Assembly (NCBI RefSeq): GCF_000801315.1 | Contig: NZ_CP010054.1 | Span: 496,001-560,000 of the forward strand | Source: Hymenobacter sp. DG25B | GTDB lineage: Bacteria; Bacteroidota; Bacteroidia; Cytophagales; Hymenobacteraceae | DNA: 64,000 bases | Direction of reading: 5' to 3' | In this document: positions 15,250-47,858 of the stretch, piece by piece | Layout: each line of letters begins with the position of its first letter | How positions within the stretch are numbered: position 1 is the stretch's first letter | Notes under the pieces: model-generated | The model's input: the letters and a program-made list of their open reading frames with translations, nothing else | Databases searched by the model: none | What the model was told of the DNA's origin: nothing | Translations under genes and position numbers: made by a program

Positions 15250-15295
15250 GTGGGAGATACTGGGTTCGAACCAGTGACCCTCTGCTTGTAAGGCA
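15250..15295 (-). repeat. attL: orphaned 3' half of tRNA-Val
   Basis: This is 46 bp identical to 45065-45110, covering the anticodon arm's 3' side, variable loop, T-arm and acceptor 3' strand of tRNA-Val. No 5' half is present (the sequence diverges after 15295), so it is not a tRNA gene. Unlike the right copy it is not followed by an encoded CCA (the bases read ACAA). Confidence 0.85.
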
Positions 15296-15340: not shown

Positions 15341-15446
15341 CTTTAAAGTGCTTTAAAGAGGTTTTTATCTATTGTTGCTTACTGGTGCTATCGGTTGTTT
15401 TACTATATTTGTTTAAACCAGCGTTTAAACCACCGCCGGTTTAAAC
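15341..15446. promoter_or_regulatory. Palindrome cluster before the integrase, probable recombinase/excisionase sites
   Basis: Two CTTTAAAG palindromes (15341-15348, 15351-15358) are followed by three GTTTAAAC palindromes (15411-15418, 15423-15430, 15439-15446), the last ending three bases before the integrase ATG. A 24-bp stretch with two GTTTAAAC sites (15409-15432) is repeated exactly near the other end of the island (44992-45015). The arrangement fits arm-type integrase or excisionase binding sites that may also autoregulate the integrase gene. The role is inferred. Confidence 0.55.
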
Positions 15447-15448
15447 AC

Positions 15449-23369: not shown

Positions 23370-24139
23370 CTCCGGTAGCTCCGAGGTATCAACTGCTGCA
23401 GGCTCCTCATACTTGCTTTTCCAGGCACCATCCAGCGGAAGCTGCCCGCCTCGCTTGGCCTGTTGGGCCGCTTCCCACTGCGCCTGCCGCTCTGCCCGGA
23501 TGCGGGCCAGCAGCGCCGCCCCGCTTTCCTCGGGGCCGGGTGGGCCGTGCGCCAGGCGCTGGTCAGTGCCCCCGTCACGGCCGCGTGTAGCACCGACTGC
23601 CGGTAGCGTTTCAGCAGCTTTTGGCTCTGTCGCACCGCCGCCACGCCCGCATCGAGCCGGCTAAATAGCTCCTCCAGCTTCGCCACAATGCGCTTCTGCT
23701 CAGGGAGGGGTGGAACCGGAAATGCAGTATCCTCGAAGTTGCCCTTCGTGATATGCTGCATTCCACTACCCTGCGTCTTACTTTTTAACTCGCCAATAAA
23801 ATTGAGTGTTCCATAGTATAGAAACAGCTTATCAATCTTAGGGACTACTTTGAAAATATGCTGATTTAGTACCGCTTCTTCTTCATTATAAATAAAAGCT
23901 CCAAGGGTTGCTGACCATGAGATAAGTAGCTCTCCAGGACGTACAATGTATTTCTCCTCGATTTCACGAGGATAGCGGTTTATGGTAGTCGTTGATTTAG
24001 TAAGGTTCTGTATTCTAAGAATAGGACGACCAGTTTCTTCCCATTCAGTTGGCTTAAATGCCCGTCCATTGATGTAAGTACCGACGTCCTTAAAAGTGGC
24101 TAAAACCCAGCCCTTCGGCAATTCCTGTTCTTCCTGCAT
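23255..24139 (-). CDS. hsdS: Type I specificity subunit, N-terminal half (split hsdS)
   Basis: This half contains TRD1 (LPKGWVLATFKDVGTYINGRAF onward) and the central conserved helix with PVPPLPEQKRIVAKLEELFSRLD and LLKRYRQSVLHAAVTGALT (about 141-190). After WRTAHPAP (about residue 200) the frame turns into unrelated basic sequence, while the expected continuation (PEESGAALLARIRAERQAQW) is read in the neighbouring frame. The change maps to a G run at 23532-23535 on the plus strand that has four G where five would keep the frame. It starts 20 bases after the hsdR stop. Confidence 0.82.
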   Translation of the reverse strand: MQEEQELPKGWVLATFKDVGTYINGRAFKPTEWEETGRPILRIQNLTKSTTTINRYPREIEEKYIVRPGELLISWSATLGAFIYNEEEAVLNQHIFKVVPKIDKLFLYYGTLNFIGELKSKTQGSGMQHITKGNFEDTAFPVPPLPEQKRIVAKLEELFSRLDAGVAAVRQSQKLLKRYRQSVLHAAVTGALTSAWRTAHPAPRKAGRRCWPASGQSGRRSGKRPNRPSEAGSFRWMVPGKASMRSLQQLIPRSYRSCRRVGFGLQRNRYVHSLPREVLLIKTNCLQTKAKSRS

Positions 24140-31900: not shown

Positions 31901-32516
31901 CACTAGTATGCGGGGAAACCCTAACTGTATGGCTCCCAAAGGAGGCGGTCCCAGCTTCCATCATTCCAGCTATACAGACTGTTCCGCTCCCGTCCGTACG
32001 CAAAAGCACTGAAGACCGTATGACTGTTTCTGAAAACGTAGCCACCAACCCACTCTGCCATACACCTGACTCACTAAGAAAGGCACGGTAGAAAGAATTA
32101 CCTGTTGCGGGAGCTTTGAGAGTAGAGACTCCAAATGTGACTACTGAATCTTTAGGTAGCCATCCGACCACGTAATACCCGCCGTACGATGCTTCTACAT
32201 CTTCCACAGTTAGGAATTGATTGATATCGGTACCTGGCCGGGAAGGCTTTACTGGCTTAGACCAAACAAGAGCTCCTTGTTGATTGAATTTCGTGAGGTA
32301 AGGCCCTGGCCCGTCAGGACCTGTATCCAGTCTGAGTTCGGCTACCAGAGTTCCCCCATTGGGGTCGTAGGTATGGGTTATGGCCTTGACGATGTCGCGG
32401 CCGCTGCCGTCACGATGAGTAGACCAATCCCATGTCTGGCCTAATACTATGCTCCCGTGTAACGAAAAGCACACCATTATAAACAGCGCTACAAGCCGTA
32501 GTAGTAAGTGTTTCAT
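28902..32516 (-). CDS. Large T9SS-secreted protein with IPT/TIG domain
   Basis: The 1,204-residue exported protein starts MKHLLLRLVALF with a signal peptide ending near VLGQ (about 27). This start is preferred over an upstream ATG at 32606 because it gives a canonical signal peptide. Residues about 27-480 form a beta-rich region with repeated WDWA and YITGYN-type segments, suggesting a propeller-like repeat. An IPT/TIG immunoglobulin-like domain follows (about 495-580: IASFTPTNGLVGTSITLTGSGFSG). The next 450 residues (QRYISEGANAGAGYRHLSAPV, GWHLLGNPYPTLIDWSQV) are homologous to the same region of the giant protein at 34-44.6 kb. The end is a T9SS type A domain, with LYPNPAHHTVTL and LPAGVYSVHV. 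Confidence 0.85.
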   Translation of the reverse strand: MKHLLLRLVALFIMVCFSLHGSIVLGQTWDWSTHRDGSGRDIVKAITHTYDPNGGTLVAELRLDTGPDGPGPYLTKFNQQGALVWSKPVKPSRPGTDINQFLTVEDVEASYGGYYVVGWLPKDSVVTFGVSTLKAPATGNSFYRAFLSESGVWQSGLVATFSETVIRSSVLLRTDGSGTVCIAGMMEAGTASFGSHTVRVSPHTSGDTKEFVVAKYDPRTGEGWDWATASYSNGNLMGSSVRYISDTYYAYGKVWITGIVAGPSVAFPTAQGVTTLTPGGTTAPGNRDVFIASASYGNWGSASNFVSQYITNAPAGGHIAHDGSNFIYITGYNPAPGNATGVSSPAGAFIAGYNPYAATFEWAQEIPDAYLYTTALAGRGTTSGASLSGKLPGTFAFGTTKLVPSTSTSDYVAQISRSGVWQSAMGLGGSTADLFGRELDTHYADAVYLSGGYNGTSMSVGNQTLPTAQGGGDNFVARLAIGSSVTIASFTPTNGLVGTSITLTGSGFSGTTSVSFNGTSASEFTVNEGGRQIIVKVPAGATSGLISVTTPSGSASSSKTFEVITDLTDLIVSDNQLVQGSYRNVTVTSTGVANLIGTLTVYGQMVVQGNGLLSQNNSSNTINGPGGFTLASGAKIFIVSEEGLSATEAVGPIQVTGSRNFSQSADYYYPADASQETGSGLPRRVRFLSIETVVKLTQPVAIRGGVSVTNTGNLLLNSHMLTLLSDADSTAIVANFGLGRVIGMATVQRYISEGANAGAGYRHLSAPVSGSTVADIATAGFIPTINSAYNKAIAPGAITPFPTVFGYDEARVATSPATTLSTFDKGWVSPTSLASSLEVGHGYTVNLAAKQTVDFVGALNTGPISIPITQTNSNGGWHLLGNPYPTLIDWSQVAVPPGLDNAMYVFESTDRYTGQYRSCVNGVGNPMVAMGQGFFVHSTAGAGPTTLVLTNNIRSVNVLTSAAPLKRPSTDLRPRLQLTLQGTTPSLSDATDVYFESGATDGVDARYDAVKLRNPHGLSLYSVTGSGNELAINGLPVLTSGAVVPLGLVIPQIGTYTLKVAKLLHLESTPVVLVDAVTGQETDLQTQAAYTFTTDSKAVSGRFALRFGPATATPTRAALLATAIALYPNPAHHTVTLALPSVPGTKTAQVAVFNALGQEVRQFELGLKPNGAEHKLELANLPAGVYSVHVQAGEVATTKRLVIE

Positions 32517-32626
32517 CAAATAAGTGGAAAGAAAATGAGATACGAAGATGAAAGAGACTGATGAGGATGGTTTCTTGTCAGACGGGATATGATAGTTTAC
32601 TTCCACTCACAATAGCTTTTCCAGTA

Positions 32627-33130
32627 TTAAGAATTTTTGACTTCGAGCAGGGCAGATTCTTTTTCCGCCAGCACTAGTAAAGGGTACGCCAGCAGAACAG
32701 CCAGAGGCGAGCAGAGGAAATCAATCAGTTGATGAGCCAGCAGGCTCATTACCTGCAGGTGTAAGCCTTGTCCTACAGCCAGCAGCATACACCCCGTCAG
32801 AAAGGCCCCGGCATATGCCAGCACAATCTGCCACTGGAAACGCCCCCGCAGCAGGACGCGCAGCAGGAGGATGCTCAAGCCCAGATACAGAACCCTGTAC
32901 GTCAGCGCTACCGGCATCCCATGGCTCGTGAGCTGCGTGTGTGTGCCTGCTTGCAATAAGTACTGCCCGGCCGGTCCCATCAATGCCATCCCGGCTCGCC
33001 ATAGCCGTGCTAGTCCGGTAAATACCTGCTCATCAAACTGCCCCAGCACAAACAGCCCGCTGCCCAGTAGGAGCAGGACTAGCTTCCGCAGTATCCGGGA
33101 TAACCGCCCATTCACGCCCGGACTATGCAT
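32627..33130 (-). CDS. Exosortase-associated membrane protein
   Basis: This is a 167-residue membrane protein. Using ATG 33130 (MHSPGVNGRL), it has about four hydrophobic segments (around 17-33, 75-90, 97-118 and 130-157). It has no catalytic Cys/Arg/His set. The gene overlaps the end of the exosortase gene by eight bases, indicating coupled translation, and the exosortase/PID-CTERM genes are directly upstream. I infer the dedicated partner that accompanies exosortases of this group in Hymenobacter-like bacteria (XrtX-associated type). The ORF can be extended to 33196, but that part is Cys/Gly/Arg-rich and is the exosortase gene in another frame. Confidence 0.65.
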   Translation of the reverse strand: MHSPGVNGRLSRILRKLVLLLLGSGLFVLGQFDEQVFTGLARLWRAGMALMGPAGQYLLQAGTHTQLTSHGMPVALTYRVLYLGLSILLLRVLLRGRFQWQIVLAYAGAFLTGCMLLAVGQGLHLQVMSLLAHQLIDFLCSPLAVLLAYPLLVLAEKESALLEVKNS

Positions 33131-33659
33131 AGCTGGCCTCCGCAGCGGAAGTAACCGAAGCCTGCCGCCGCACCCACAGCACCCACAAGCCTCCAATGGC
33201 GCCGTACACCACGAAGGTGAAGGTGTAGTGGTGGTTGAAGTCCACGCTGCCGGCCGGGCCCCAGTGCTGCAGCACCGCCAGCGCCGCTACCCGGATAATA
33301 TTCAGCAGGTAAATCATCAGGCAGCCCAGGGGGATAAACCACCCTTTGCGCGTGCCTGGGCTGGGAAAAGACAGCACAAAGCCGGCAAACAGCGTGTAGA
33401 GCACCAACCCATTGCAGGGGTGGCCCACCCACACGGCCGGCTGCCCGCTCACGCTCACCAGCCGCAGCTGCTCGACTTGTGCGTCTATGCCCAGGCCGCG
33501 CAGTGCGAAAGCGCTGGCCTGCGCCAGGTTCACCGACAAGGCCTGGTCCAGCTGACCCTGCGGCCCCAGCCACAGCGTGTAACCCACGTGCCAGACCAGC
33601 AGCAGCAGCAGGGCGCGCAACAGAAATACCCGTAGGGGGGATTGAAAGAGACGATTCAT
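33123..33659 (-). CDS. Exosortase family protein (XrtX-like)
   Basis: The 178-residue multi-span membrane transpeptidase-like enzyme is predicted to cleave C-terminal sorting signals and hand the protein to an envelope acceptor. The exosortase triad is visible: Cys82 in HPCNGLVLY, Arg123 in LLNIIRVAAL and His143/144 in DFNHHYTF. An N-terminal helix (about 9-30), a periplasmic stretch and four to five further helices complete the fold. The size fits small Bacteroidota exosortases. The PID-CTERM gene directly upstream is its probable substrate, and the overlapping gene downstream its membrane partner. The XrtX label is from memory of the family context, not a profile hit. Confidence 0.85.
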   Translation of the reverse strand: MNRLFQSPLRVFLLRALLLLLVWHVGYTLWLGPQGQLDQALSVNLAQASAFALRGLGIDAQVEQLRLVSVSGQPAVWVGHPCNGLVLYTLFAGFVLSFPSPGTRKGWFIPLGCLMIYLLNIIRVAALAVLQHWGPAGSVDFNHHYTFTFVVYGAIGGLWVLWVRRQASVTSAAEASYA

Positions 33660-34045: not shown

Positions 34046-37000
34046 CTAACGGCTGAGCACGATTTTGCGGGAAACCACCTGGTTGCCGGAGGTGATCCGC
34101 ACCACATACATACCCGTGGCCAGCTGCGAGCCGTCGACCGGAATGTGTTGCTGGGCTCCGGTCGTCGTCACTGTGCGCGCCAACACTCGCTGACCGAGGG
34201 CGTTGATCAGCTCCAGCTGCACACGGCCCTGGTACTGGTTGAGCTCCACCGTGAAGTGGCCGACACTAGGATTAGGGTACACCCGTGCCTCCTGACTGCC
34301 CGCACCCGCTTTGGTCGGGGTCGGGGTCAGGGAAGGATTGAAGTGCACGAAGAAGCGGCCCTCCGCCTCGGTGGAGGAGGCGGTGAAGGAGTAGGACGGG
34401 GTCGTGCGCAAATCCTGCCACACCTTCAGCTGCCGGTCCTCCAGCAGAATCTGCGTCGTGCTGGCAAAGTTGACCAGCTGGGTTGCATCCAGCGTATGCG
34501 CCGTGGCCTGCGTCACCCGCACGCCCAGAGGTACCACCACCGACTGCTGCAAGGGCCCCTGGCCGTTGATGGACAACTGCTTCTGCGCGGCCACGCTGTA
34601 CAGGTTGGGGCTGCCATCCGTGTTCAGGATCTTGTAGGCATCGAAGGCGGCATCCACCTCGGCGGTGGCTCCCTGCTCGAAGTACAGGTAAGTGGCATCC
34701 GTGTGCTGCTGCCCGTCACGCAGACTCAGCTCTACCAGAGGACGGGTTTCGCCGCCGCGGTACAGGCCGGGGTTCTGGTAGGAGGTCAGGCGGCAGGCAT
34801 CTGTGAAGCTGAAGGTCACCGGCTGGGCGCCCTGCACCCGCACCAGGAAGCCCTGCATAGCGGGAATGATGTTGGCGCCTTTCGGGCCGATGCCATTCAC
34901 GTAGCTCACGTACGAGCCGGCATATGCCGTGCTCGAGCGGAAGGTGTAGATGGCGTTGTACATGCCGGCCGGAGCCGTCACCAAATCCCAGTTAATAGGT
35001 GCCGGGTACGGGTTACCCAGAACATGCCAGCCCGAGTTTTCCAGGCCACCATGCGTCAGGTTGGTCACGGCCACCGGTCCCGTGGTTAAGGTGCCTTCCA
35101 AAGCTACCTTCTCCTGAGCACTGATGTTCACCGAATAGCCTTTACCCGATACCAATGCATCGGACAGCGCAGCCAGCGACTTCCAGCCCACAGTAAATTC
35201 GGGGTATGAAGCAGTAATGCGCGTCTCGTCATAGCCCAAGACATTGGGGAAGATAGAGGCCGGCATGTAGGGTCGTGGCAGCTTGTTGTAGTCCGGGTTT
35301 ACCTTTGGCGTAAAGCCGCTGGTGGCCAGGTCCGCTACCGTCGTGCTCACCACCGGGGAGGAGAGGTGGCGGTAGCCTACCCCTGGGTTCGAAGGGCTGA
35401 TGTAGCGCTGCATAGCCGCTTTGCCAACTACAACCCCGCCGGCATTAACCACCAGGGCGGTGGTTTTGGCATCGGAGAGCAGCGTGAAGGGCTGAGCGTT
35501 GGTAGTCAGGTTGCCGCGCAGCGTAAGCAGGCGGGCTACCGTGGTAGTCCCCGTCAGCTCGCCCCCGGCCGCTTCGACGGTCAGGTTAGAAAAAGGTGTG
35601 ACCCCACTGCCGCCTATTTTCTGCTTCGTCGTACCCGTCAGGCGAACTTCACCCTTCTCCGTGCTGCTGAACAGACCATTGTTGATAAAGTCGCCTTTCA
35701 GCTCCAGCACGCCGTTGTCTAGCACGCTGAGTTTGGCGTTTGATGCCAGGGTCACTTGCTTGACCGCCTGCAACGAGCTGATGGTCGGCGAGTAGGGGGT
35801 TCCAGCGGGAATCAGGACTGTGGTTTCCGCAGTAGGTACCTGGTTATTGCTCCAGTTCGAAGCGGTCGTCCAGGCCGTCGAGGTCTGACCCGTCCACGTC
35901 AGGCTGGCTGTCGTCACAGTTACAGAGACGGTACTAGTAGCCGTGCAGCTGCCGTTGGTTGCTGTCACGGTATACTGCTGGGTCCCAATTGCCGTGGGCG
36001 TTGCCGAAACCAAGCTGCCGCTGGTCTGCTGCAGGCCCTGACCACTCCAGATATAGGTAGCTCCACTTACCTGGCTGGCCACACTGAGCGTCGTGCTGCT
36101 GCCCAGCATCAGGGAAGTGGGCGAAGCCTGCGCGGTTACAGCCAGCGCCGGGTTTACCGTTACCGTCACCGTAGCCGTGCTGGTGCAGCCCTGCGCCGAG
36201 GTGCCTGTTACCGTATACGTCGTAGTGGTAGCCGGAGAGGCTGTTACCGTAGCGCTGCTGGTGCTGCTCAGCCCGGTAGCCGGCGACCAGCTATACGAGC
36301 TGGCCCCCGTTGCCTGCAGGCTGGTGGAAGAGCCGGCACAAATGCTGGCGGAGGTAGCGCTGGCGCTTACCACCGGCGCGGCATTGATGGTGGCCGTCGC
36401 ACTCACCCGACTGCTGGGGCATCCTTGCGTGGAAGTAGCCTGCACGTAGTACGTAGTCGTAGCGCTCAGCGAGGGCGTGGTATAGCTCGCGCTGGTGCTC
36501 AGCACAGTAGTGCTGGTGGCCGTGGCGTACCAGGCATAGGTACCGCTGGAGCCGCTGGCTTTCAACGTAACCGTACCAGCGCCGCAGCGCGCAGCACCCG
36601 TGATAACCGGGGCACTGAGTACCGGACTCACCGTTACCTGCTGGGTAGCGGTGCCCTGGCAGCCGTTGGCATTGGTGTAGCGGTAAGTAATGGTATAGGT
36701 ACCGGCCCCCGCCGTGCCCGGCGAAAACTGATTCCCATTCAAAATGCCCGTTCCGCTGAACGTACCGCCCGTAGGTGAGCCTGTCAGGGTAGCGTTGCCA
36801 TCTGTAGTGCAATAGGCAGCATTCAGGCCCGTGAAGCTGATGTTGGATAGAGAGGTAACGTTTACAATTACCTCATCCGAAGCCTGCTGGCCATACGAAT
36901 CCTCTACCGTCACGCTGTAGGTGCCAGCGGTGGTAACGGTAATGGAAGCCGTGGTAGCGCCCGTGCTCCACTTATAGGATTTGAAGCCCGCGGCGGCCGT

Positions 37001-38785
37001 TAGCGTTTTGCTCTGGCCTTCGCACATCGTCACATCGGCGCCTAGGTTCACTACGGGCTCGGGTGCCAGCTGCACTGTTACCGCGGCCGAGGTGGCCTGA
37101 CAGCCGTTTTTATCCGTTACCGTCACCGTATAGGTGCCCGGCGTCGAAATAACCGCTTCCTGATAGGGCTGCCCGTCCGACCAGCGGTAGGAAGCAAACC
37201 CATCATTGGCCTTCAGGGTTGTTTTCGAGCCCTTAACAATGGTAATGGTTCCGGTAGGTGTGGTGGTCACCACGGGGGCCGGGTACACCGTTACCATCGT
37301 AGCACTGGAAGTGCTGCAGCCGGCGCTGCCGGTGGTGGTCAGCTCCACCTTATAGGTACCGGCTTTGGCGTAGGTGTGCGTGGGATGCTGTGCTGTAGAG
37401 GTCTGGCCATCCCCAAACTTCCAGCTGTAACTCATGGTACCCGAGCCAATGGTGCTGGTATTGGTAAAGGTAATGCCCGATCCGAAACAGGAGTTGCTAG
37501 CGGTGAAGGCCGCCTGGGGCGTTTCTGTTACCGTCACCGCCTTGCTGATGGCGCTGTAGCAGCCTTCCTTGGAATAGGCCCGCATCGTCACAGTATAGGT
37601 GCCGGACTTCGCATAGGCATGAATCGGGCTCTTCACTGAGGCGGAGTCCCCATCTCCGAACAGCCACTCGTAGCGGGAAATGCTACCCGTGCTGATGCTG
37701 GCCGAACCGGTGAACTTCACGGGCTGGTTCGCGCAGTCCGTTACGTAGGTGAAGTTAACGCTGGGACTTGGCTTCTTATACCGGTCGATGCGCAGCGTGT
37801 CGTTGTTGATGTTGTCATCGTTGGCATCCACTAGCCAGATTTTGAAGCTATACACCCCATCCGTGCCCAAATCCTGGGGCTGCTTGAAGGTGTAGGCAAT
37901 ATCATTAGCTGTGCTTCCCGGAATGACGTCCGTATAGATGGTGCCCTTATTGACCTGATAGGCCACCTTCAGGTTGAGGAGCGGAATATCCCCGTACTGG
38001 GCAATGTTCACCGTCACGGGTTCACTGCTGCCTAGGTTGCAGTCCAGCGTAGGGCTTACCAGACGGGTAATACCAAAGTCCACGGTAAACTCATCACCGC
38101 CTACATCGGGCGCGGAACCGTTGCGTAGCTCCCCGTCAATGTCCAGCGTGACGCCTGATGAGGCAATTCCTGCACCGTTTATAAAGCGCTGCAGAGGTCG
38201 CAACTCCGTTGTCGATTTGAAGAAAGGGTTAACGGCGTTGGAGTTGGGATCGGTCTTGAGCGTTTGCCGCCAGCTGCTCAGACTGTTTTGATTGGTGCCG
38301 TTAGCGAAGCCGAGCTTGCCGGAAGCAGAGTAGTAGTTGTTGTAATCCCAGTCGTTGGTGCCGCTGGGGCTGCTAACCAGGTAGGTGGCGTAGCCGCTGC
38401 CGGTGTTGGCGAAGATATTATTCTTCACCGTCAGGTCACTGCCCCCGGTTAGCTCAAAAGCCCGGCCGTTGACCGGATCCGAGCCCGTGATGTTGACCGA
38501 GTTGAAGACGATGCGGTTGCTGGAGCCGCTATTGGAGATGCCCTTGGCAATGCCCACGCCGCCGGCCTGAATGAAATTGTTGGCGATCAAGCAACCCGAC
38601 TGCTGCACTTCAATGCCACTGCCATTTACCACGTTAGTAATGCGGTTCTGGAGTACTTGCACCTGGCTGTTTTCTGTGCCGGTGAGGCGCAGGCCGGTAT
38701 CCACACCGCTAAGCAAATTGCCACGCACTATGCCTCCGCTGCTCGCCCACAGATTAAGGTCTAGTCCGATACGGGCCTGTTGCAC
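34046..38785 (-). CDS. Giant protein, C-terminal ORF with PKD, Ig-like and T9SS domains
   Basis: This 1,579-residue ORF opens (GTG) inside the beta-helix region of the last repeat. After about residue 230 it has a linker domain, two PKD domains with YEWLFGDGDSASVKSP and YSWKFGDGQTSTAQHP, and several Ig-like segments typical of gliding-motility-type proteins (VTVTDKNGCQATS, TYYVQATSTQGCPSS). Then come TWTGQTSTAWTTASNW, the shared QRYISPSNPGVGYRHLSSPV / GWHVLGNPYPAPINW module, and a T9SS type A sorting domain with VYPNPSVGHFTVEL and LATGMYVVRI. It has no signal peptide of its own, so it cannot be exported unless joined to the upstream ORFs. Confidence 0.8.
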   Translation of the reverse strand: MQQARIGLDLNLWASSGGIVRGNLLSGVDTGLRLTGTENSQVQVLQNRITNVVNGSGIEVQQSGCLIANNFIQAGGVGIAKGISNSGSSNRIVFNSVNITGSDPVNGRAFELTGGSDLTVKNNIFANTGSGYATYLVSSPSGTNDWDYNNYYSASGKLGFANGTNQNSLSSWRQTLKTDPNSNAVNPFFKSTTELRPLQRFINGAGIASSGVTLDIDGELRNGSAPDVGGDEFTVDFGITRLVSPTLDCNLGSSEPVTVNIAQYGDIPLLNLKVAYQVNKGTIYTDVIPGSTANDIAYTFKQPQDLGTDGVYSFKIWLVDANDDNINNDTLRIDRYKKPSPSVNFTYVTDCANQPVKFTGSASISTGSISRYEWLFGDGDSASVKSPIHAYAKSGTYTVTMRAYSKEGCYSAISKAVTVTETPQAAFTASNSCFGSGITFTNTSTIGSGTMSYSWKFGDGQTSTAQHPTHTYAKAGTYKVELTTTGSAGCSTSSATMVTVYPAPVVTTTPTGTITIVKGSKTTLKANDGFASYRWSDGQPYQEAVISTPGTYTVTVTDKNGCQATSAAVTVQLAPEPVVNLGADVTMCEGQSKTLTAAAGFKSYKWSTGATTASITVTTAGTYSVTVEDSYGQQASDEVIVNVTSLSNISFTGLNAAYCTTDGNATLTGSPTGGTFSGTGILNGNQFSPGTAGAGTYTITYRYTNANGCQGTATQQVTVSPVLSAPVITGAARCGAGTVTLKASGSSGTYAWYATATSTTVLSTSASYTTPSLSATTTYYVQATSTQGCPSSRVSATATINAAPVVSASATSASICAGSSTSLQATGASSYSWSPATGLSSTSSATVTASPATTTTYTVTGTSAQGCTSTATVTVTVNPALAVTAQASPTSLMLGSSTTLSVASQVSGATYIWSGQGLQQTSGSLVSATPTAIGTQQYTVTATNGSCTATSTVSVTVTTASLTWTGQTSTAWTTASNWSNNQVPTAETTVLIPAGTPYSPTISSLQAVKQVTLASNAKLSVLDNGVLELKGDFINNGLFSSTEKGEVRLTGTTKQKIGGSGVTPFSNLTVEAAGGELTGTTTVARLLTLRGNLTTNAQPFTLLSDAKTTALVVNAGGVVVGKAAMQRYISPSNPGVGYRHLSSPVVSTTVADLATSGFTPKVNPDYNKLPRPYMPASIFPNVLGYDETRITASYPEFTVGWKSLAALSDALVSGKGYSVNISAQEKVALEGTLTTGPVAVTNLTHGGLENSGWHVLGNPYPAPINWDLVTAPAGMYNAIYTFRSSTAYAGSYVSYVNGIGPKGANIIPAMQGFLVRVQGAQPVTFSFTDACRLTSYQNPGLYRGGETRPLVELSLRDGQQHTDATYLYFEQGATAEVDAAFDAYKILNTDGSPNLYSVAAQKQLSINGQGPLQQSVVVPLGVRVTQATAHTLDATQLVNFASTTQILLEDRQLKVWQDLRTTPSYSFTASSTEAEGRFFVHFNPSLTPTPTKAGAGSQEARVYPNPSVGHFTVELNQYQGRVQLELINALGQRVLARTVTTTGAQQHIPVDGSQLATGMYVVRITSGNQVVSRKIVLSR

Positions 38786-39816
38786 GGTGTTGTTCAGTAC
38801 CTGTAGATCAAGCGGGGCCCGGCAGGAAGAGCTGCATACATAGCTAGCGGAAACCCCGATGGTTAAGCGCCCAACGGGAGTAATGGTATTGTTTTTTACG
38901 ATTATGCTGCTACCCCCCGGACCTGTATACCATAGGACGAATAGCCACTAGATGAATAGCAGCCGCCCTGAATCGTATTGTCAGATATTTCAGCGTTAAC
39001 CGTACTGCTCACTATCACACCATAAGTCGAGTAATATCCATAGGCAAATAGGTGGTTGTTGTTGATCTTGGGGTTGGAACTGTTAGTCACGTTCACTGAT
39101 GTAACCTCGGAGCCCGAATTGATACTGGGTGCAACAGTGTTGCCCTGCACCAGCGCCCCAGTGGTATAGGATAACCCGATGCTGGACTCTGAGGCCGAGT
39201 ATGGGCTGGTAAAGGTGTTGCCTGTAATGGCGACGCGGCTTGCTGGCTGAGTCGACAGATTGGCCAAAAATATGCCGCCGGTCACGGCATTGCCCGCAAA
39301 GGTGAGCACTGAGTCGCAGGAGGTGCCAGGGGAGCTGACCCGGTTGAGTTGCGTGTTGCGGAAACTTACATGGTGAGCCCCGTTCCGAATAATGACCGCC
39401 GATGAACCAGATTGCCCATTGCTACGCAAAATCCCCAGCTTGCGGAAGGTGATATAATCGGTTCCTTCCAGAACGAGGGTATAGTCATTGCTAGGATTCG
39501 TCTCCTGGTAATGCAAAGCCACCTTCGTGCTATCCCCACTTTCCGACTCAAATACGATTGGGGCCGTTGCCGACGCACCACTGATCTGGCCCAGCTTCAC
39601 CTGCTCGTTATAGCTGCCGTTGCGCACACGGAAAGTCACCCCACAGCCCACCCCGGCATTATTCAAGGCCGTTACTGCTTCCGTGAAGTTCTGGAAGTCG
39701 GGATTCGTGCCCCCAATCGTGTATAAACCGCACAGTGGTGTGGCAAGATCCTTAATCGAAGCCGTGTCATTAAGGGCATTGCACGCTTTCTGACCATTGG
39801 GTGTGGTAGCCCAGGC
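38277..39816. repeat. 1,540-bp intragenic direct repeat, copy A
   Basis: By eye it is identical base for base to copy B (40259-41798), offset 1,982 bp. It encodes most of one beta-helix unit of the giant protein. Unique spacer 39817-40258 separates it from B. Confidence 0.9.
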
Positions 39817-40767
39817 TTTTAAGGAATACGTCTTCCCGCTGGGGAAACTGTAGCTACCTACTGTAATGGTAGCATTGCCTGCCCCAGCCAAAGTCCCAGT
39901 CCAGTTATAAGTCGGCTGCGCAACTCCGTTGATGGACCAGTTGATAACGGCCGAGCTGAGAGTGGTCAGGCTCTGATTCTGTAGCTGTACTTCTATTCCC
40001 TGTAAGCCAGGAGACAACGGGTTCCTTAGACTTGTGAAAGCATTCACCCCGACATCGGGGGTGCAAGGGACATACTCTTTGGCTCCTATATCGGCAGTGG
40101 TGCTTCGGAGTACACTATCAATATCTGTTGTGATGCCACTAATAGATACAGCGGCATTGTTGAGCAGAATCTGATTAATGCCAAGATCGGTATGAGAGAC
40201 GAAAAATGGATTGACTGCTTTACTATGTACATCTGTAGAGATTAAAGCGCTCCAAGCACTCAGACTGTTTTGATTGGTGCCGTTAGCGAAGCCGAGCTTG
40301 CCGGAAGCAGAGTAGTAGTTGTTGTAATCCCAGTCGTTGGTGCCGCTGGGGCTGCTAACCAGGTAGGTGGCGTAGCCGCTGCCGGTGTTGGCGAAGATAT
40401 TATTCTTCACCGTCAGGTCACTGCCCCCGGTTAGCTCAAAAGCCCGGCCGTTGACCGGATCCGAGCCCGTGATGTTGACCGAGTTGAAGACGATGCGGTT
40501 GCTGGAGCCGCTATTGGAGATGCCCTTGGCAATGCCCACGCCGCCGGCCTGAATGAAATTGTTGGCGATCAAGCAACCCGACTGCTGCACTTCAATGCCA
40601 CTGCCATTTACCACGTTAGTAATGCGGTTCTGGAGTACTTGCACCTGGCTGTTTTCTGTGCCGGTGAGGCGCAGGCCGGTATCCACACCGCTAAGCAAAT
40701 TGCCACGCACTATGCCTCCGCTGCTCGCCCACAGATTAAGGTCTAGTCCGATACGGGCCTGTTGCAC
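38902..40767 (-). CDS. Giant protein, repeat-unit ORF (unit 3)
   Basis: This 621-residue ORF runs from the beta-helix part of one unit (GLDLNLWASSGGIVRGNLL) through a unit-specific spacer (VSISGITTDIDSVL ... AWATTPNGQKACN) into the next beta-helix (GLYTIGGTNPDFQNFTEAV). It ends at a stop directly after RGVAA, where the frame slips at a run of six C (38913-38918, plus strand). No signal peptide or sorting domain is present, so it is an internal segment. Confidence 0.7.
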   Translation of the reverse strand: MQQARIGLDLNLWASSGGIVRGNLLSGVDTGLRLTGTENSQVQVLQNRITNVVNGSGIEVQQSGCLIANNFIQAGGVGIAKGISNSGSSNRIVFNSVNITGSDPVNGRAFELTGGSDLTVKNNIFANTGSGYATYLVSSPSGTNDWDYNNYYSASGKLGFANGTNQNSLSAWSALISTDVHSKAVNPFFVSHTDLGINQILLNNAAVSISGITTDIDSVLRSTTADIGAKEYVPCTPDVGVNAFTSLRNPLSPGLQGIEVQLQNQSLTTLSSAVINWSINGVAQPTYNWTGTLAGAGNATITVGSYSFPSGKTYSLKAWATTPNGQKACNALNDTASIKDLATPLCGLYTIGGTNPDFQNFTEAVTALNNAGVGCGVTFRVRNGSYNEQVKLGQISGASATAPIVFESESGDSTKVALHYQETNPSNDYTLVLEGTDYITFRKLGILRSNGQSGSSAVIIRNGAHHVSFRNTQLNRVSSPGTSCDSVLTFAGNAVTGGIFLANLSTQPASRVAITGNTFTSPYSASESSIGLSYTTGALVQGNTVAPSINSGSEVTSVNVTNSSNPKINNNHLFAYGYYSTYGVIVSSTVNAEISDNTIQGGCYSSSGYSSYGIQVRGVAA

Positions 40768-41798
40768 GGTGTTGTTCAGTACCTGTAGATCAAGCGGGGC
40801 CCGGCAGGAAGAGCTGCATACATAGCTAGCGGAAACCCCGATGGTTAAGCGCCCAACGGGAGTAATGGTATTGTTTTTTACGATTATGCTGCTACCCCCC
40901 GGACCTGTATACCATAGGACGAATAGCCACTAGATGAATAGCAGCCGCCCTGAATCGTATTGTCAGATATTTCAGCGTTAACCGTACTGCTCACTATCAC
41001 ACCATAAGTCGAGTAATATCCATAGGCAAATAGGTGGTTGTTGTTGATCTTGGGGTTGGAACTGTTAGTCACGTTCACTGATGTAACCTCGGAGCCCGAA
41101 TTGATACTGGGTGCAACAGTGTTGCCCTGCACCAGCGCCCCAGTGGTATAGGATAACCCGATGCTGGACTCTGAGGCCGAGTATGGGCTGGTAAAGGTGT
41201 TGCCTGTAATGGCGACGCGGCTTGCTGGCTGAGTCGACAGATTGGCCAAAAATATGCCGCCGGTCACGGCATTGCCCGCAAAGGTGAGCACTGAGTCGCA
41301 GGAGGTGCCAGGGGAGCTGACCCGGTTGAGTTGCGTGTTGCGGAAACTTACATGGTGAGCCCCGTTCCGAATAATGACCGCCGATGAACCAGATTGCCCA
41401 TTGCTACGCAAAATCCCCAGCTTGCGGAAGGTGATATAATCGGTTCCTTCCAGAACGAGGGTATAGTCATTGCTAGGATTCGTCTCCTGGTAATGCAAAG
41501 CCACCTTCGTGCTATCCCCACTTTCCGACTCAAATACGATTGGGGCCGTTGCCGACGCACCACTGATCTGGCCCAGCTTCACCTGCTCGTTATAGCTGCC
41601 GTTGCGCACACGGAAAGTCACCCCACAGCCCACCCCGGCATTATTCAAGGCCGTTACTGCTTCCGTGAAGTTCTGGAAGTCGGGATTCGTGCCCCCAATC
41701 GTGTATAAACCGCACAGTGGTGTGGCAAGATCCTTAATCGAAGCCGTGTCATTAAGGGCATTGCACGCTTTCTGACCATTGGGTGTGGTAGCCCAGGC
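40259..41798. repeat. 1,540-bp intragenic direct repeat, copy B
   Basis: It is identical to copy A over 1,540 bp and to copy C over about 1.43 kb apart from one base. The spacer to C (41799-42269) encodes a diverged but homologous protein segment. Confidence 0.9.
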
Positions 41799-42392
41799 CT
41801 TGATGCTATAGCTCTTTCCTCCCTGAAAGTTAAAATTGCCCAGTGAGATGCTGGCGTTAGCGGCCCCAGTCAAGGACCCTGTCCACTTATAAACAGGCTG
41901 GGAGGCGCCATTTATGGACCAGTTAATTACAGCTGAATTGAGCGCGGTTAAGCTCTGATTTTGTAACTGTACCTGCACCGATTGGCTACCTGGGGTAAGC
42001 GGATTCCCTAGCCCGACAAATGCATTCACCCCAACATCGGGTGTACATGGGGTGAATTCTTTGGCCCCAATATCAGCCGTACTACCACGCGTTGCGCCAT
42101 CAATATCAGTTGTTATACCTGTTATGGCCATCGCGGCACTATTAAGCAGAATTTGATTGATGCTTAGATTAGTGGGGGAAGTATAAAATGGATTAACTGC
42201 TTTTGAGTTGTTGTCGAGGCTATTGGCTTTCCTCCATTGAGCTAAGTCAGCTACAGCGGTGCCGTTAGTGAAGCCGAGCTTGCCGGAAGCAGAGTAGTAG
42301 TTGTTGTAATCCCAGTCGTTGGTGCCGCTGGGGCTGCTAACCAGGTAGGTGGCGTAGCCGCTGCCGGTGTTGGCGAAGATATTATTCTTCAC
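40884..42392 (-). CDS. Giant protein, repeat-unit ORF (unit 2)
   Basis: This 502-residue internal segment starts at VKNNIFANTGSGYATY. Its spacer is a diverged version of the one in unit 3 (MAITGITTDIDGATR, FQGGKSYSIKAWATTPNG). The second half is identical to that of unit 3 and ends at the same RGVAA stop after six C (40895-40900). Confidence 0.7.
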   Translation of the reverse strand: MKNNIFANTGSGYATYLVSSPSGTNDWDYNNYYSASGKLGFTNGTAVADLAQWRKANSLDNNSKAVNPFYTSPTNLSINQILLNSAAMAITGITTDIDGATRGSTADIGAKEFTPCTPDVGVNAFVGLGNPLTPGSQSVQVQLQNQSLTALNSAVINWSINGASQPVYKWTGSLTGAANASISLGNFNFQGGKSYSIKAWATTPNGQKACNALNDTASIKDLATPLCGLYTIGGTNPDFQNFTEAVTALNNAGVGCGVTFRVRNGSYNEQVKLGQISGASATAPIVFESESGDSTKVALHYQETNPSNDYTLVLEGTDYITFRKLGILRSNGQSGSSAVIIRNGAHHVSFRNTQLNRVSSPGTSCDSVLTFAGNAVTGGIFLANLSTQPASRVAITGNTFTSPYSASESSIGLSYTTGALVQGNTVAPSINSGSEVTSVNVTNSSNPKINNNHLFAYGYYSTYGVIVSSTVNAEISDNTIQGGCYSSSGYSSYGIQVRGVAA

Positions 42393-43697
42393 CGTCAGGT
42401 CACTGCCCCGGTTAGCTCAAAAGCCCGGCCGTTGACCGGATCCGAGCCCGTGATGTTGACCGAGTTGAAGACGATGCGGTTGCTGGAGCCGCTATTGGAG
42501 ATGCCCTTGGCAATGCCCACGCCGCCGGCCTGAATGAAATTGTTGGCGATCAAGCAACCCGACTGCTGCACTTCAATGCCACTGCCATTTACCACGTTAG
42601 TAATGCGGTTCTGGAGTACTTGCACCTGGCTGTTTTCTGTGCCGGTGAGGCGCAGGCCGGTATCCACACCGCTAAGCAAATTGCCACGCACTATGCCTCC
42701 GCTGCTCGCCCACAGATTAAGGTCTAGTCCGATACGGGCCTGTTGCACGGTGTTGTTCAGTACCTGTAGATCAAGCGGGGCCCGGCAGGAAGAGCTGCAT
42801 ACATAGCTAGCGGAAACCCCGATGGTTAAGCGCCCAACGGGAGTAATGGTATTGTTTTTTACGATTATGCTGCTACCCCCCGGACCTGTATACCATAGGA
42901 CGAATAGCCACTAGATGAATAGCAGCCGCCCTGAATCGTATTGTCAGATATTTCAGCGTTAACCGTACTGCTCACTATCACACCATAAGTCGAGTAATAT
43001 CCATAGGCAAATAGGTGGTTGTTGTTGATCTTGGGGTTGGAACTGTTAGTCACGTTCACTGATGTAACCTCGGAGCCCGAATTGATACTGGGTGCAACAG
43101 TGTTGCCCTGCACCAGCGCCCCAGTGGTATAGGATAACCCGATGCTGGACTCTGAGGCCGAGTATGGGCTGGTAAAGGTGTTGCCTGTAATGGCGACGCG
43201 GCTTGCTGGCTGAGTCGACAGATTGGCCAAAAATATGCCGCCGGTCACGGCATTGCCCGCAAAGGTGAGCACTGAGTCGCAGGAGGTGCCAGGGGAGCTG
43301 ACCCGGTTGAGTTGCGTGTTGCGGAAACTTACATGGTGAGCCCCGTTCCGAATAATGACCGCCGATGAACCAGATTGCCCATTGCTACGCAAAATCCCCA
43401 GCTTGCGGAAGGTGATATAATCGGTTCCTTCCAGAACGAGGGTATAGTCATTGCTAGGATTCGTCTCCTGGTAATGCAAAGCCACCTTCGTGCTATCCCC
43501 ACTTTCCGACTCAAATACGATTGGGGCCGTTGCCGACGCACCACTGATCTGGCCCAGCTTCACCTGCTCGTTATAGCTGCCGTTGCGCACACGGAAAGTC
43601 ACCCCACAGCCCACCCCGGCATTATTCAAGGCCGTTACTGCTTCCGTGAAGTTCTGGAAGTCGGGATTCGTGCCCCCAATCGTGTATAAACCGCACA
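42270..43697. repeat. 1,428-bp intragenic direct repeat, copy C
   Basis: It matches copy B except for one missing C at 42406-42409. Identity ends at 43697, earlier than the A/B identity, where the N-terminal unit has its own sequence. Confidence 0.9.
42395..42748 (-). CDS. Giant protein, short repeat fragment
   Basis: The 117-residue fragment is identical to the start of the 34046-38785 and 38902-40767 ORFs up to GRAFELTG, then ends three codons later. The cause is a run of four C at 42406-42409 where the other two copies have five (38442-38446, 40424-40428). Direct comparison of the three copies shows this single-base difference. Confidence 0.75.
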   Translation of the reverse strand: MQQARIGLDLNLWASSGGIVRGNLLSGVDTGLRLTGTENSQVQVLQNRITNVVNGSGIEVQQSGCLIANNFIQAGGVGIAKGISNSGSSNRIVFNSVNITGSDPVNGRAFELTGAVT

Positions 43698-44646
43698 AGC
43701 TGCTGTACAAAGTCACTGCAAGCGTGTCGTTCTGAACATTGGGGTCATTTAAACCATTTGGTTTGCTTTGCCACACCTTTAACTGTACAGGTTTACCCGC
43801 AGGAAAAGCATAGGTGCCAATCTTTACATCATTCGCTGACATGCCTAATGCCAGGTTTCCCGTCCAGTTATAAGCAGTTTGTACTACATTATTTACTGAC
43901 CAGCCAATAGTAGTCTTGCTCAGTGTATTCGCACCGAAGTTGGTCAGCCTTATCTGGATGGGCTGCGTGCCAGCCTTAAATGGCATAGAAGGGGCATCTA
44001 ACGCACTTATGCCTGCATCTAATGGCAGCGGCGCGTAGATGCGGATATTATCAATGGCCCAGTAGTGGGAGTTATTGCCCTCCCAGCGGAAGCGCACTTT
44101 AGCGCCCGTGGCGCCTCTTACTAATGAAGATATATTATATACTTCGCTCTGTGGGTTAGCCGTACTATCGGAATACGAAGCCACAAACTGCCAGATAAAA
44201 CCATTAAACACTTCTACCATGCCCTTGCCTCCTTTGCCACCCGCGAAAAAGTGGTCGAAGTATAGCACCGTATTCTGGCTTACCGAGGCATCGAAAAAGC
44301 GAGTTTCCAGCGTAGCGGTTTCTTTGCCACCATCCGTCGAGTAGTTCTCACTGTCGAAAATAGCGAAGCTGCCGGAGAAAGGGTAGTTGATGTTCCGCCC
44401 GCCGGGGTTATCAAAGTGCCACTTATCGGTAGCAGGCCCGGAGCCGGCACTGTTGAGCCAACCCGTAGGCGGCGTAGTGCCCGAGGCCGAGGAAAAGTCT
44501 TCGTTCAGGATATAGGTCTGAGCAAAGGCGCGGCCGGTACCTCCCAGAATGAGAAGCAGGCACAACAGCAAAGCCCGGTGCCAGGACCGGGTAGCAGTAA
44601 ATTTACCAAGAAGGAAAAAGTTACCCGCGCGTAGGGTTATTGCCAT
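42865..44646 (-). CDS. Giant protein, N-terminal ORF with signal peptide and MAM-like domain
   Basis: This 593-residue ORF has an extended signal sequence (basic start, hydrophobic core around residues 25-39, cleavage after AFAQ near 43). A jelly-roll domain follows (about 45-205): NEDFSSASGTTPPTGW and VRFRWEGNNSHYWAIDNIRI resemble MAM/concanavalin-type domains of T9SS proteins. A CARDB-like segment (IQIRLTNFGANTLSKTTIGW) and the first beta-helix unit follow. It ends at the RGVAA stop after six C (42876-42881). ATG 44646 gives the only good signal peptide in the whole gene set 34-44.6 kb. Confidence 0.8.
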   Translation of the reverse strand: MAITLRAGNFFLLGKFTATRSWHRALLLCLLLILGGTGRAFAQTYILNEDFSSASGTTPPTGWLNSAGSGPATDKWHFDNPGGRNINYPFSGSFAIFDSENYSTDGGKETATLETRFFDASVSQNTVLYFDHFFAGGKGGKGMVEVFNGFIWQFVASYSDSTANPQSEVYNISSLVRGATGAKVRFRWEGNNSHYWAIDNIRIYAPLPLDAGISALDAPSMPFKAGTQPIQIRLTNFGANTLSKTTIGWSVNNVVQTAYNWTGNLALGMSANDVKIGTYAFPAGKPVQLKVWQSKPNGLNDPNVQNDTLAVTLYSSLCGLYTIGGTNPDFQNFTEAVTALNNAGVGCGVTFRVRNGSYNEQVKLGQISGASATAPIVFESESGDSTKVALHYQETNPSNDYTLVLEGTDYITFRKLGILRSNGQSGSSAVIIRNGAHHVSFRNTQLNRVSSPGTSCDSVLTFAGNAVTGGIFLANLSTQPASRVAITGNTFTSPYSASESSIGLSYTTGALVQGNTVAPSINSGSEVTSVNVTNSSNPKINNNHLFAYGYYSTYGVIVSSTVNAEISDNTIQGGCYSSSGYSSYGIQVRGVAA

Positions 44647-45058: not shown

Positions 45059-45064
45059 TCAGTG

Positions 45065-45110
45065 GTGGGAGATACTGGGTTCGAACCAGTGACCCTCTGC
45101 TTGTAAGGCA
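45065..45110 (-). repeat. attR: island-side copy of the tRNA-Val 3' half
   Basis: These 46 bp are identical to attL (15250-15295). Here they are part of a complete tRNA gene. Bases 45063-45065 supply CCA on the tRNA strand, which the left copy lacks. Confidence 0.85.
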
Positions 45111-45140
45111 GATGCTCTGAACCAGCTGAGCTAATCTCCC
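45066..45140 (-). tRNA. tRNA-Val (anticodon TAC)
   Basis: The 75-nt cloverleaf reads from 45140: acceptor GGGAGAT pairs with ATCTCCC, the D-arm is GCTC-AGCTGGTTCA-GAGC, the anticodon loop CTTACAA gives anticodon TAC, and the T-arm is ACTGG-TTCGAAC-CAGT. The discriminator is A and CCA is encoded (to 45063). It reads GUA/GUN valine codons. Its 3' half comes from the integrated island. Confidence 0.95.
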
Positions 45141-45300
45141 TTTTCCGTCCCGGTGTGTGCCGTTTGGGAGTACAAATATGGCGGGTGTTTTCGAATACAC
45201 CAAACTTTCTCCGACCTTCGGCTAGAAATTTTTTGGTATTTGCAGCGTTAGAAACCCGGTTTTAAGCAGCAAAGTATTCATATTCAGAATTGTTGAGGCG

Positions 45301-45732
45301 TTGGGAATCGTTAAAAAAACATTGCTTTTCGGGCTGATTTTTTTTGCGCTGCTGCTGAGCGGGCTGCTGGCGGCCGTGAAATTCGGCGAAAAGCACATTA
45401 TTAACCTGTTTGTGCAGGAGGCCAATCAGTACCTGACTACACCGGTACAGGTGGGGCGCATTGAGTTGTCTCTGCTCGACCAGTTTCCCCGCGTTTCCAT
45501 TACCCTGCACCACGTCACCATCCGCGGAACCCTGCCCACTGATACGGCGGCGCTGGCCCGGGTGCGCACGCTGTATTGCGCCTTCGATACCTGGGATGTG
45601 CTGTCGGGGATTACCGGATTCGGGCGCTTACGCTGGGGCAGGGGCAGGTATTGGTGCGGCGCAATGCCCAGGGCGAGGGTAACTACAACGTATTCCGAAC
45701 CGACACTACCCAGGACGCGGACCGCCCCTTGA
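45301..45732 (+). CDS. AsmA-like protein, N-terminal part (frameshifted)
   Basis: This ORF begins with TTG at 45301 and has a membrane anchor (VKKTLLFGLIFFALLLSGLLAAV, about 4-26), then VQVGRIELSLLDQFPRVSITLHHVTIRG, the usual opening of AsmA/TamB-like proteins. After TWDVLSG (about residue 103) the frame is lost; the continuation YRIRALTLGQGQVLVRRN is read in another frame. One more G in the four-G run 45606-45609 joins it to the next ORF. Confidence 0.75.
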   Translation: MGIVKKTLLFGLIFFALLLSGLLAAVKFGEKHIINLFVQEANQYLTTPVQVGRIELSLLDQFPRVSITLHHVTIRGTLPTDTAALARVRTLYCAFDTWDVLSGITGFGRLRWGRGRYWCGAMPRARVTTTYSEPTLPRTRTAP

Positions 45733-47858
45733 TTTTCGACCTGGAAAAAATAAGCCTGCAGCAGGTGAGCATAGTGTATCAGGATGAAGGCCTGCACCAG
45801 CGCTACCGTTTGCAGGCGCACGATGTACAGGCCGCCCTGGCCGTAGCCGAGCCCCTGATTCGGATTGCCGCCACGGGCACCACGCGGGTAGCGGCTATAG
45901 AGCTGGGCCCCGATGCCTATCTGCGCGACAAAGAGCTGACGCTGCATACCCAGCTGACCGTGGACCGAAAAACTAGGCTGGTAACCCTGGCGCCCTCGGT
46001 GCTGGGCATAGGCCCGGCCGCGTATCAGGTGGCGGGCACCATAGGGTATGCGGGCGCCACCCAACTGAACCTGACGGTGCAGGGCAAAAATACCAATGCG
46101 CAGTCGGTGGTGGCGCTGCTGCCGGCCCGGCTGGTGCGCCGCCTGGGCGTATACCGCAGCCAGGGCGAGCTATATTTTAACGGCGCGGTGCACGGGGAGC
46201 TGTCGGCGCGGGCCAACCCACACCTGACGTTGGCCTTCGGGTGCCGCAATGCTTCGTTTTTCCACCCCGGGTACAAGCAGCGGGTGGAGCAGGTCTTTCT
46301 CACGGGTACCTTCAGTAATGGCGCCCGCCGCAATGCGCGAACCTCCGTTCTTTCCCTGCAGGATATCCGCGGTAAGCTGCAAGGCCGGCCGTTTAGCGGC
46401 GCTTTGCATTACGCTAACTTCACAGACCCCAACATGCGCCTGCGCCTGCTGGCCGATGTGGATGTAGGCCAGGCGCTGCGCTTCTTTCCGGTGGCCGCCG
46501 TGCGCGCCGGCAGTGGGCAGGCCACCCTGCAACTGCAGTTTAAGGGCAACTTACGCGCCTTCAAAGCGCAGTCGGGGCGGGGCGGGGAGGCGGCCGGGCA
46601 GTTGCAACTGCGGAATGTAAGTCTGCAGCTGCGCGATTATCCGCAGCCGGTTTCCCGCCTTACCGGCCAGCTGCAGCTGCGCGGCAACACGGTGGCGCTG
46701 GTGGGCTGCTCCGCTATGTGGGGGCAGTCAGACTTTCAAGTGAACGGGGCCCTGCGCAACTTTCTGGAGTGGGCACTGCACCCGGGGCAGGCTTTGCTGG
46801 TAGATGCCGCCGTGGCCTCGCGGCAGCTGAATCTAAATGAGCTGCTGGCCGCATCGTCTCAACCAACTGCCGGGCCGCGAGCGGCAGCGGGTGCTTCTGC
46901 GGAGTACGCGGCTCTGGTTGTGCCAGTTTCCCTGGCTCTCAACATCCGGGCTTCGGCCCAAAACGTGGTGTTTCGGCGGCTGCGGGCCCAGAATCTGCGG
47001 GGCGTGGTTCGGCTGCAGAACCAGGTGTTTTCCTCGCCCGGGCTCAGCATTGAGGCGCTGGGCGGGCGGGCCAGCGTGCGCGGTACCGTAGATGCGCGCC
47101 GCCCCAGCCTGATTAAAGCCAGCACCGTAGCCGCGTGCAGCCGCATGCCCCTGGACAAGCTGTTTTATGTGTTTGAGGATTTCGGACAGCAGTTTATTAC
47201 GCACCAGCATTTGCGCGGCCTGCTGACGGCCTCCGGCGAATCAGACGTGTATTTTAATCAGCGCCTGGAACCCATAACCGACCGGCTGGAAGCGGAAATA
47301 AAAGCTACGGTGTACAATGGCGAGCTGCTCAACTTTGAGCCCGTGCAGAAGCTGTCCATGGTGGCCAGCCGGGAGCAGCTGCGCCATCTGCGCTTCGCGG
47401 AGCTGACCAACAACTTCTACATTCAGAGTCGCACGGTGTACCTGCCGGAAATGGAAATCCGCTCTAACGTGCGTACGGCTTCCCTGATTCGGGTAACGGG
47501 CACGCACACCTTCGATCAGCAGATGGATTATCATGTTTCCATTCCGGTGCTGCCGGGCCTGCTGCGGCGCGTTTCTATTGGGGGCGAAACCAATACGGGG
47601 CCGGCTATTCTGCTGGCCGTGCAGGGCGACGAAGACAACTTCCGGGTGAGTTTTGACCGGCGCCGGACCACGCCGCCCGCGGCCCGGCCCCCGGTAAAGC
47701 CGCGCACCACCCTGGAGGAGCTGCTGGCCGGGCGGGAACGGCCGACGACCCCCGCTGACCCGGCCGCCAGTACCGCCCCGGCCGAGCGGCCAGCAGCCGT
47801 AAAACCTCGGGAGAAAAAGCCCGTGGCCCCCGCGCCCGGCGAGTATTTCGACTTCTGA
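45576..47858 (+). CDS. AsmA-like outer-membrane biogenesis protein, main part (frameshifted 5')
   Basis: AsmA-like proteins are large periplasmic beta-groove proteins anchored in the inner membrane and linked to lipid transport and outer-membrane assembly. This ORF carries the bulk of the protein, with long beta-rich stretches such as GNYNVFRTD, GRASVRGTVDARRP and a C-terminal AsmA_2-like region (EMEIRSNVRTASLIRVTGTHTFDQQMDYHVSIPVLPGLL), then a Pro/Ala/Lys-rich tail. Joined with the N-terminal ORF (one base added at 45606-45609) it makes a protein of 852 residues spanning 45301-47858, a normal size. The real coding part of this frame starts near 45610. Confidence 0.82.
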   Translation: MRLRYLGCAVGDYRIRALTLGQGQVLVRRNAQGEGNYNVFRTDTTQDADRPLIFDLEKISLQQVSIVYQDEGLHQRYRLQAHDVQAALAVAEPLIRIAATGTTRVAAIELGPDAYLRDKELTLHTQLTVDRKTRLVTLAPSVLGIGPAAYQVAGTIGYAGATQLNLTVQGKNTNAQSVVALLPARLVRRLGVYRSQGELYFNGAVHGELSARANPHLTLAFGCRNASFFHPGYKQRVEQVFLTGTFSNGARRNARTSVLSLQDIRGKLQGRPFSGALHYANFTDPNMRLRLLADVDVGQALRFFPVAAVRAGSGQATLQLQFKGNLRAFKAQSGRGGEAAGQLQLRNVSLQLRDYPQPVSRLTGQLQLRGNTVALVGCSAMWGQSDFQVNGALRNFLEWALHPGQALLVDAAVASRQLNLNELLAASSQPTAGPRAAAGASAEYAALVVPVSLALNIRASAQNVVFRRLRAQNLRGVVRLQNQVFSSPGLSIEALGGRASVRGTVDARRPSLIKASTVAACSRMPLDKLFYVFEDFGQQFITHQHLRGLLTASGESDVYFNQRLEPITDRLEAEIKATVYNGELLNFEPVQKLSMVASREQLRHLRFAELTNNFYIQSRTVYLPEMEIRSNVRTASLIRVTGTHTFDQQMDYHVSIPVLPGLLRRVSIGGETNTGPAILLAVQGDEDNFRVSFDRRRTTPPAARPPVKPRTTLEELLAGRERPTTPADPAASTAPAERPAAVKPREKKPVAPAPGEYFDF

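Follow-up and report, generated by a model that had tools for sequence, protein, structure and literature searches.

Five open reading frames of Hymenobacter sp. DG25B as probable pieces of one giant T9SS protein gene with near-identical repeat blocks

Introduction

Surface proteins encoded by genes with long, highly identical DNA repeats have been described as periscope proteins, and the paper on them expects such repeats to recombine, altering length (PMC8201768). One criterion for this group is a stalk, built from the repeats, that bears an N-terminal ligand-binding domain. The gene of Hymenobacter sp. DG25B studied here shares with these genes the long and highly identical DNA repeats, but differs in that its unit is a predicted pair of a beta-helix and an Ig domain within a giant protein of the type IX secretion system (T9SS); the near-complete difference of the repeat cores between species is an extra feature of the Hymenobacter gene. 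The number of repeat blocks is three in DG25B and two in the orthologue of Hymenobacter sp. J193 (two species, one strain each).

According to the Polypolish paper, wrong homopolymer lengths make up most of the errors left in long-read assemblies and often persist in repeats after short-read polishing (PMC8812927), and the Kastor paper describes long-read errors as mainly short homopolymer indels that fragment genes (PMC12007338). When the gene of a giant T9SS protein is broken at runs in long identical repeats, the protein is concealed in the form of fragments, and surveys of surface proteins may therefore undercount such giants. The DG25B protein is another T9SS giant of an already known type, and the concerted variable cores of its blocks are the part worth following. 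Among the papers listed in searches of the openly licensed literature, none was on the DG25B gene, on Hymenobacter sp. J193, or on a concerted turnover of beta-helices in T9SS proteins.

Reading frames and domain content of the locus

All coordinates refer to the window, the whole 64,000-nt stretch of contig NZ_CP010054.1 that was analysed (genome of 4.36 Mb, four contigs). The five open reading frames (ORFs) reported for positions 34046-44646 of the minus strand in the preliminary description are present there: four exceed 150 aa (42865-44646, 593 aa; 40884-42392, 502 aa; 38902-40767, 621 aa; 34046-38785, 1579 aa), and the fifth (42395-42748) has 117 aa counted from its first start codon. From stop to stop, the five stretches comprise 594, 171, 510, 675, and 1633 codons, with neighbours overlapping end to start, and each of the four G/C runs that had been named as joins falls inside such an overlap. 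The pieces, as used in the following, are:

42865..44646, minus strand: piece 1, with the start, an apparent signal peptide, the conserved N-terminal region, and the first part of block 1 (ORF of 593 aa)
42398..42910, minus strand: piece 1b, continuing block 1 (171 codons without a stop)
40884..42416, minus strand: piece 2, with the end of block 1, the first spacer, and the start of block 2
38902..40929, minus strand: piece 3, with the remainder of block 2, the second spacer (CARDB-like), and the start of block 3; used for structure prediction and fold matching
34046..38947, minus strand: piece 4, with the end of block 3, two PKD domains, two Ig_7 domains, the C-terminal region, and the T9SS sorting domain
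34058..34282, minus strand: T9SS C-terminal sorting domain, residues 1556-1630 of piece 4

Piece 4 scores above the Pfam cut-offs for PF18911/PF00801 (PKD), PF19081 (Ig_7), and PF18962 (T9SS tail), its tail reaching 49.8 bits with PF18962 (cut-off 27) and 48.0 bits with TIGR04183 (cut-off 23). Piece 1b has a weak match to NosD (PF05048, E 7e-5) that lies under the curated cut-off, and piece 1 contains a hydrophobic stretch ending in AFAQ, recognized by eye as an apparent signal peptide. Of the claim that only the first ORF has a signal peptide and only the last one the T9SS domain, the second half is confirmed by profiles; as to the first half, an apparent signal peptide was seen by eye in the first piece only. 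The expectation that annotation would yield five unrelated hypothetical proteins fails for the last piece, which bears PKD, Ig_7, and T9SS sorting domains and is present in the protein collection as a protein of its own (P0121, 1552 aa).

Repeat blocks and frame-break sites

Three repeat blocks, separated by two spacers, and four sites of frame change were located:

42258..43697, minus strand: block 1, near-identical repeat
40276..41716, minus strand: block 2, near-identical repeat
38294..39734, minus strand: block 3, near-identical repeat
41717..42257, minus strand: spacer 1, with strong synonymous divergence from spacer 2 (pS 0.70) but a constrained protein sequence (dN/dS 0.12)
39735..40275, minus strand: spacer 2, predicted CARDB-like Ig domain
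42876..42881, minus strand: frame change in block 1, G run with a counterpart site in blocks 2 and 3
42406..42409, minus strand: frame change in block 1 only, G run whose length differs from blocks 2 and 3
40895..40900, minus strand: frame change in block 2, G run, counterpart of the site in blocks 1 and 3
38913..38918, minus strand: frame change in block 3, G run, counterpart of the site in blocks 1 and 2

The blocks, each of about 1.44 kb, are about 99.9% identical and differ by a one-base difference in a run and by one substitution near the block end; when the repeat codons of pieces 2 and 3 are compared, 326 of 327 aligned codons match. The repeats are spaced by 1982 and 1981 bases, neither of which is a multiple of three, and the protein frames of the spacers are nonetheless consistent. 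Every one of the four breaks falls within a block, and because three of the joins represent one and the same G run in each of the three blocks, the fourth being the one-base run difference of block 1, the joins are not independent of each other. The four joins of the preliminary description amount to at most two independent sites rather than four separate facts. The divisibility by three of the joined length of 10,605 nt, which had been cited as support, carries no independent weight, since the joins were chosen such that each piece runs into the next one.

Homologues and protein-level constraint

A full-length homologue in another Hymenobacter genome, proposed earlier as a check of the joined gene, was found in J193, where a frame of 3735 codons from stop to stop spans all five pieces without a split. 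This paralogue (P0001, 3709 aa; L025) is a PKD domain-containing protein that carries PKD, Ig_7, and T9SS tail domains and to which the last piece aligns at 79% identity. The syntenic orthologue of J193 (L024), which shares the conserved genes and the tRNA on the tRNA side of the DG25B locus and whose N- and C-terminal parts are 85-89% identical to those of DG25B, contains a frame of 1771 codons that crosses the positions corresponding to the DG25B joins. The orthologue (L024, 4175-12870) is split, too, at two positions unlike those of DG25B; at one of them, its two near-identical blocks differ from each other by one base.

Selection on the reading frames was assessed against this orthologue. 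Residues 1-333 of piece 1 show 89% identity and a dN/dS of 0.058, piece 2 aligns at 59% identity in a single frame, piece 4 has a dN/dS of 0.10-0.11, and for pieces 1b, 2, and 3 values of 0.14-0.28 were obtained with synonymous sites near saturation. For piece 1, another comparison yielded no value owing to saturation. Within the DG25B gene, the two spacers yield the dN/dS of 0.12 given above. Constraint at the protein level downstream of the joins indicates that these frames have been translated for a long time. The repeat piece was matched in 36 of 120 genomes (own genome included), the listed open frames reaching up to 6116 codons; the genus thus has many large relatives that are intact. 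No complete copy from a second strain of the species was present among the 120 matches listed out of 312 (2009 candidates scored). Taken from the sequence comparisons, the view that the five pieces constitute one gene is strongly supported.

Origin of the frame breaks

We consider the frame breaks to be G runs left with a wrong length in the assembly, with a probability of roughly 0.8. On this explanation, the pattern would reduce to one erroneous site carried by three near-identical blocks plus one additional difference in block 1, and short-read polishing would be expected to perform worst precisely in long near-identical repeats. As a control, 40 stretches of 20 kb (800 kb in total) of the DG25B chromosome were scanned for frame switches on the same strand. 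The scan gave 27 listed switches, nine of which, picked by eye, were checked against Pfam (on both sides of the switch in eight cases, on one side in the ninth); this tested set leaves out the own-genome pairs at L028, L031, L045, and L026 (~10394, ~11705). Four of the nine were clear splits, one was weak (L036, methyltransferase with a match on one side), and in the remaining four no sign of a split was seen. The clear splits are:

L041, ~3584: glycogen synthase, profile positions 1-487 in one frame and 473-585 in the next
L026, ~4458: nicotinate phosphoribosyltransferase, N and C domains in different frames
L038, ~4714: PAS/HisKA kinase, HisKA and HATPase in different frames
L117, ~5160: E1 dehydrogenase fusion, in two frames

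Glycogen synthase is unsplit (593-845 codons) in all 18 other genomes with a match (24 searched, own included), and in 21 of the 23 other genomes compared, the E1 fusion occupies a single frame of 661 codons or more; the matches in the remaining two (G061 and G082) have stops or a short frame. With conserved enzymes split in the DG25B assembly, residual indel errors are an easier reading than decay. Comparable scans of two relatives found two splits (L055, L061) and one doubtful case (L046, ~2236) among five of eight candidate pairs tested in J193, and one split (L084) among the five candidates of a further genome (G010), all of which were tested.

Two results of the control count against assembly errors. 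The four confirmed splits in 800 kb, a lower bound, correspond to about 0.05 breaks expected in 10.6 kb, so that the giant gene with its four breaks exceeds its share; the excess fits the repeats, within which all of these breaks lie. Of the four sites in the window, the codon-usage scan itself caught just the fourth and none of the three at G6 runs, and it therefore undercounts; a stricter version also overlooked the glycogen synthase break. Secondly, a general shortening of long G/C runs was not seen, as eight runs of at least 7 were counted in 400 kb compared with four and four in two relatives; long runs are not depleted, so runs of such length are not always shortened.

The strongest competitor of the error explanation, which we nevertheless regard as unlikely, is a very recent real frameshift, in which a run changed its length in one block, gene conversion carried this change into the remaining blocks, and block 1 acquired another change; the gene would then be a young pseudogene or yield only a truncated product. 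Since the blocks are homogenised in the DG25B gene as well as in both J193 genes, such a mutation would indeed be copied, and the different split sites of the J193 orthologue could reflect genuine decay of both genes. The E1 matches with stops or a short frame in 2 of 23 genomes also count against the error explanation. Against it stand the otherwise open state of the five pieces across 10.6 kb, the strong protein-level constraint, and the splitting of conserved enzymes in the same assembly.

Programmed or transcriptional slippage at the G runs, or their action as phase-variable on/off tracts, is favoured by the position of three breaks at the same G6 sequence, shortly followed by a stop, but is very improbable: the run falls in the variable core, the J193 orthologue reads this region in one frame, and the full product would take four successive slips. 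A G6 run is short for a phase-variable tract. Programmed slippage in particular is disfavoured by the absence of the slippery site from the 1771-codon frame of the orthologue, in which the core is not conserved. That the pieces represent five separate genes, as their separate appearance in the ORF listing and the 1552-aa entry in the protein collection might suggest, is hardly conceivable and was rejected, because the J193 homologue is a single ORF and because the sorting tail occurs in the last piece alone and the apparent signal peptide (by eye) in the first alone.

Predicted architecture and export of the protein

Read as one gene, the locus very probably encodes a giant surface protein of about 3.5 thousand residues that is exported by the T9SS. 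Its predicted order is an apparent signal peptide, a conserved N-terminal region, and three beta-helix blocks with CARDB-like Ig spacers between them, followed by two PKD domains, two Ig_7 domains, a further C-terminal region, and the T9SS sorting tail. The protein would most likely be exported via the T9SS translocon and held at the cell surface, where the beta-helices may be displayed as putative carbohydrate- or ligand-binding heads. The genome encodes SprA (SprA_N match of 472 bits in a frame of 2443 codons; a second match of 80 bits lies nearby in a frame of 2660 codons), and 69 matches to T9SS sorting tails were found in it. Seven of these 69 matches lie in open frames of at most 205 codons, which may be stubs or further split genes.

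The repeat unit is predicted to consist of a beta-helix and a CARDB-like Ig domain, based on a structure model that is of low confidence in large part (mean pLDDT 53.7); the latter half of the range matched to beta-helices is among the low-confidence parts. The likeness to the beta-helices of pectin methylesterases and pectate lyases is one of fold only (13-15% identity in the best rows) and implies no enzyme activity, and the likeness to the CARDB domain is likewise one of fold only (rows of 18-23% identity). No solved structure was found by sequence search. As judged from sequence, the rest of the protein is ordinary type IX secretion cargo.

Possible concerted turnover of the variable blocks

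The J193 orthologue contains two near-identical blocks of 1447 bp (about 99.9% identity), and the J193 paralogue has an internal repeat of two blocks of 1121 bp (99.9% identity). When DG25B and the J193 orthologue are compared, the flanking parts are 75-100% identical per 60-residue bin, the block edges (first 90 and last 90 residues) 70-93%, and the bins adjoining these edges 47-53%, while the block core (about residues 120-360) shows 13-33% identity in all of its eight bins of 30 residues. A relationship between the cores is still evident, as none of 200 shuffles reached the alignment score. Block start and end positions match between the two genes, and the lone substitution among copies is found at an equivalent site near the block end in both species. 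The paralogue differs in that it lies on another contig, is not syntenic, and has blocks mostly 20-58% identical to those of DG25B (40-residue bins). In 14 other homologue regions of the genus, from 13 genomes, for which up to five matches of at least 150 bp per region were considered, identities of 72-90% were found among the repeats listed; for two of the regions no repeat was listed.

The presence of this pattern in two separate assemblies suggests, from one orthologue pair and one paralogue, that the whole block set may turn over together. We tentatively propose, as a possibility to which we give less than even odds, that a new core enters between the conserved edges and is then copied to every block by gene conversion. 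The conserved edges would act as recombination anchors, all heads would change together and thereby vary the binding surface of a T9SS giant on a tRNA-linked island, and the frame breaks would be errors or by-products of the same recombination. A DNA search of the DG25B genome for silent donor copies of the block gave just the three matches within the gene. If such turnover occurs, the protein would carry three identical variable heads that are almost completely unlike those of its orthologue, and the locus would offer a testable case in Bacteroidota of a diversification system made up of conserved edges and gene conversion.

The tRNA-Val island and neighbouring genes

The giant gene sits at one end of a tRNA-integrated genomic island of about 30 kb (15250-45140), as evident from a copy of the tRNA 3' part, an integrase, and an empty site in a relative. 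The boundary features are:

45063-45140: tRNA-Val, island boundary
15250-15295 and 45065-45110: exact 46-bp copies of the tRNA-Val 3' part, attachment-like repeats
15395-16768: tyrosine integrase, adjoining the far 46-bp copy

The empty site was found in G012, in which two tRNA copies, with about 0.1 kb between them, connect the two flanks. An equally close pair of tRNA copies points to an empty site in G110 and G022, in each of which one flank only was examined, and G023 has two close tRNA copies with the flanks on different contigs. In J193 and G102, the sites are occupied by about 22 and about 30 kb, respectively, and the 18 kb read from G102 have only the tRNA in common with the window.

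The cargo of the island includes a type I restriction system, an ADP-ribosylglycohydrolase, a second T9SS protein, and an exosortase-like protein. The second protein with a T9SS tail (1234 aa, 28902-32606) and the exosortase-like ORF (33123-33659) are located beside the giant gene. The type I restriction specificity protein HsdS (22590-24139) is represented by two overlapping ORFs in different frames with one Methylase_S domain each, which can be read as a split gene, as a real split subunit, or as another assembly indel. Outside the island, a long gene without a Pfam match shows a frame switch at about 45615, its two open stretches extending over 45226-45729 and 45543-47855.
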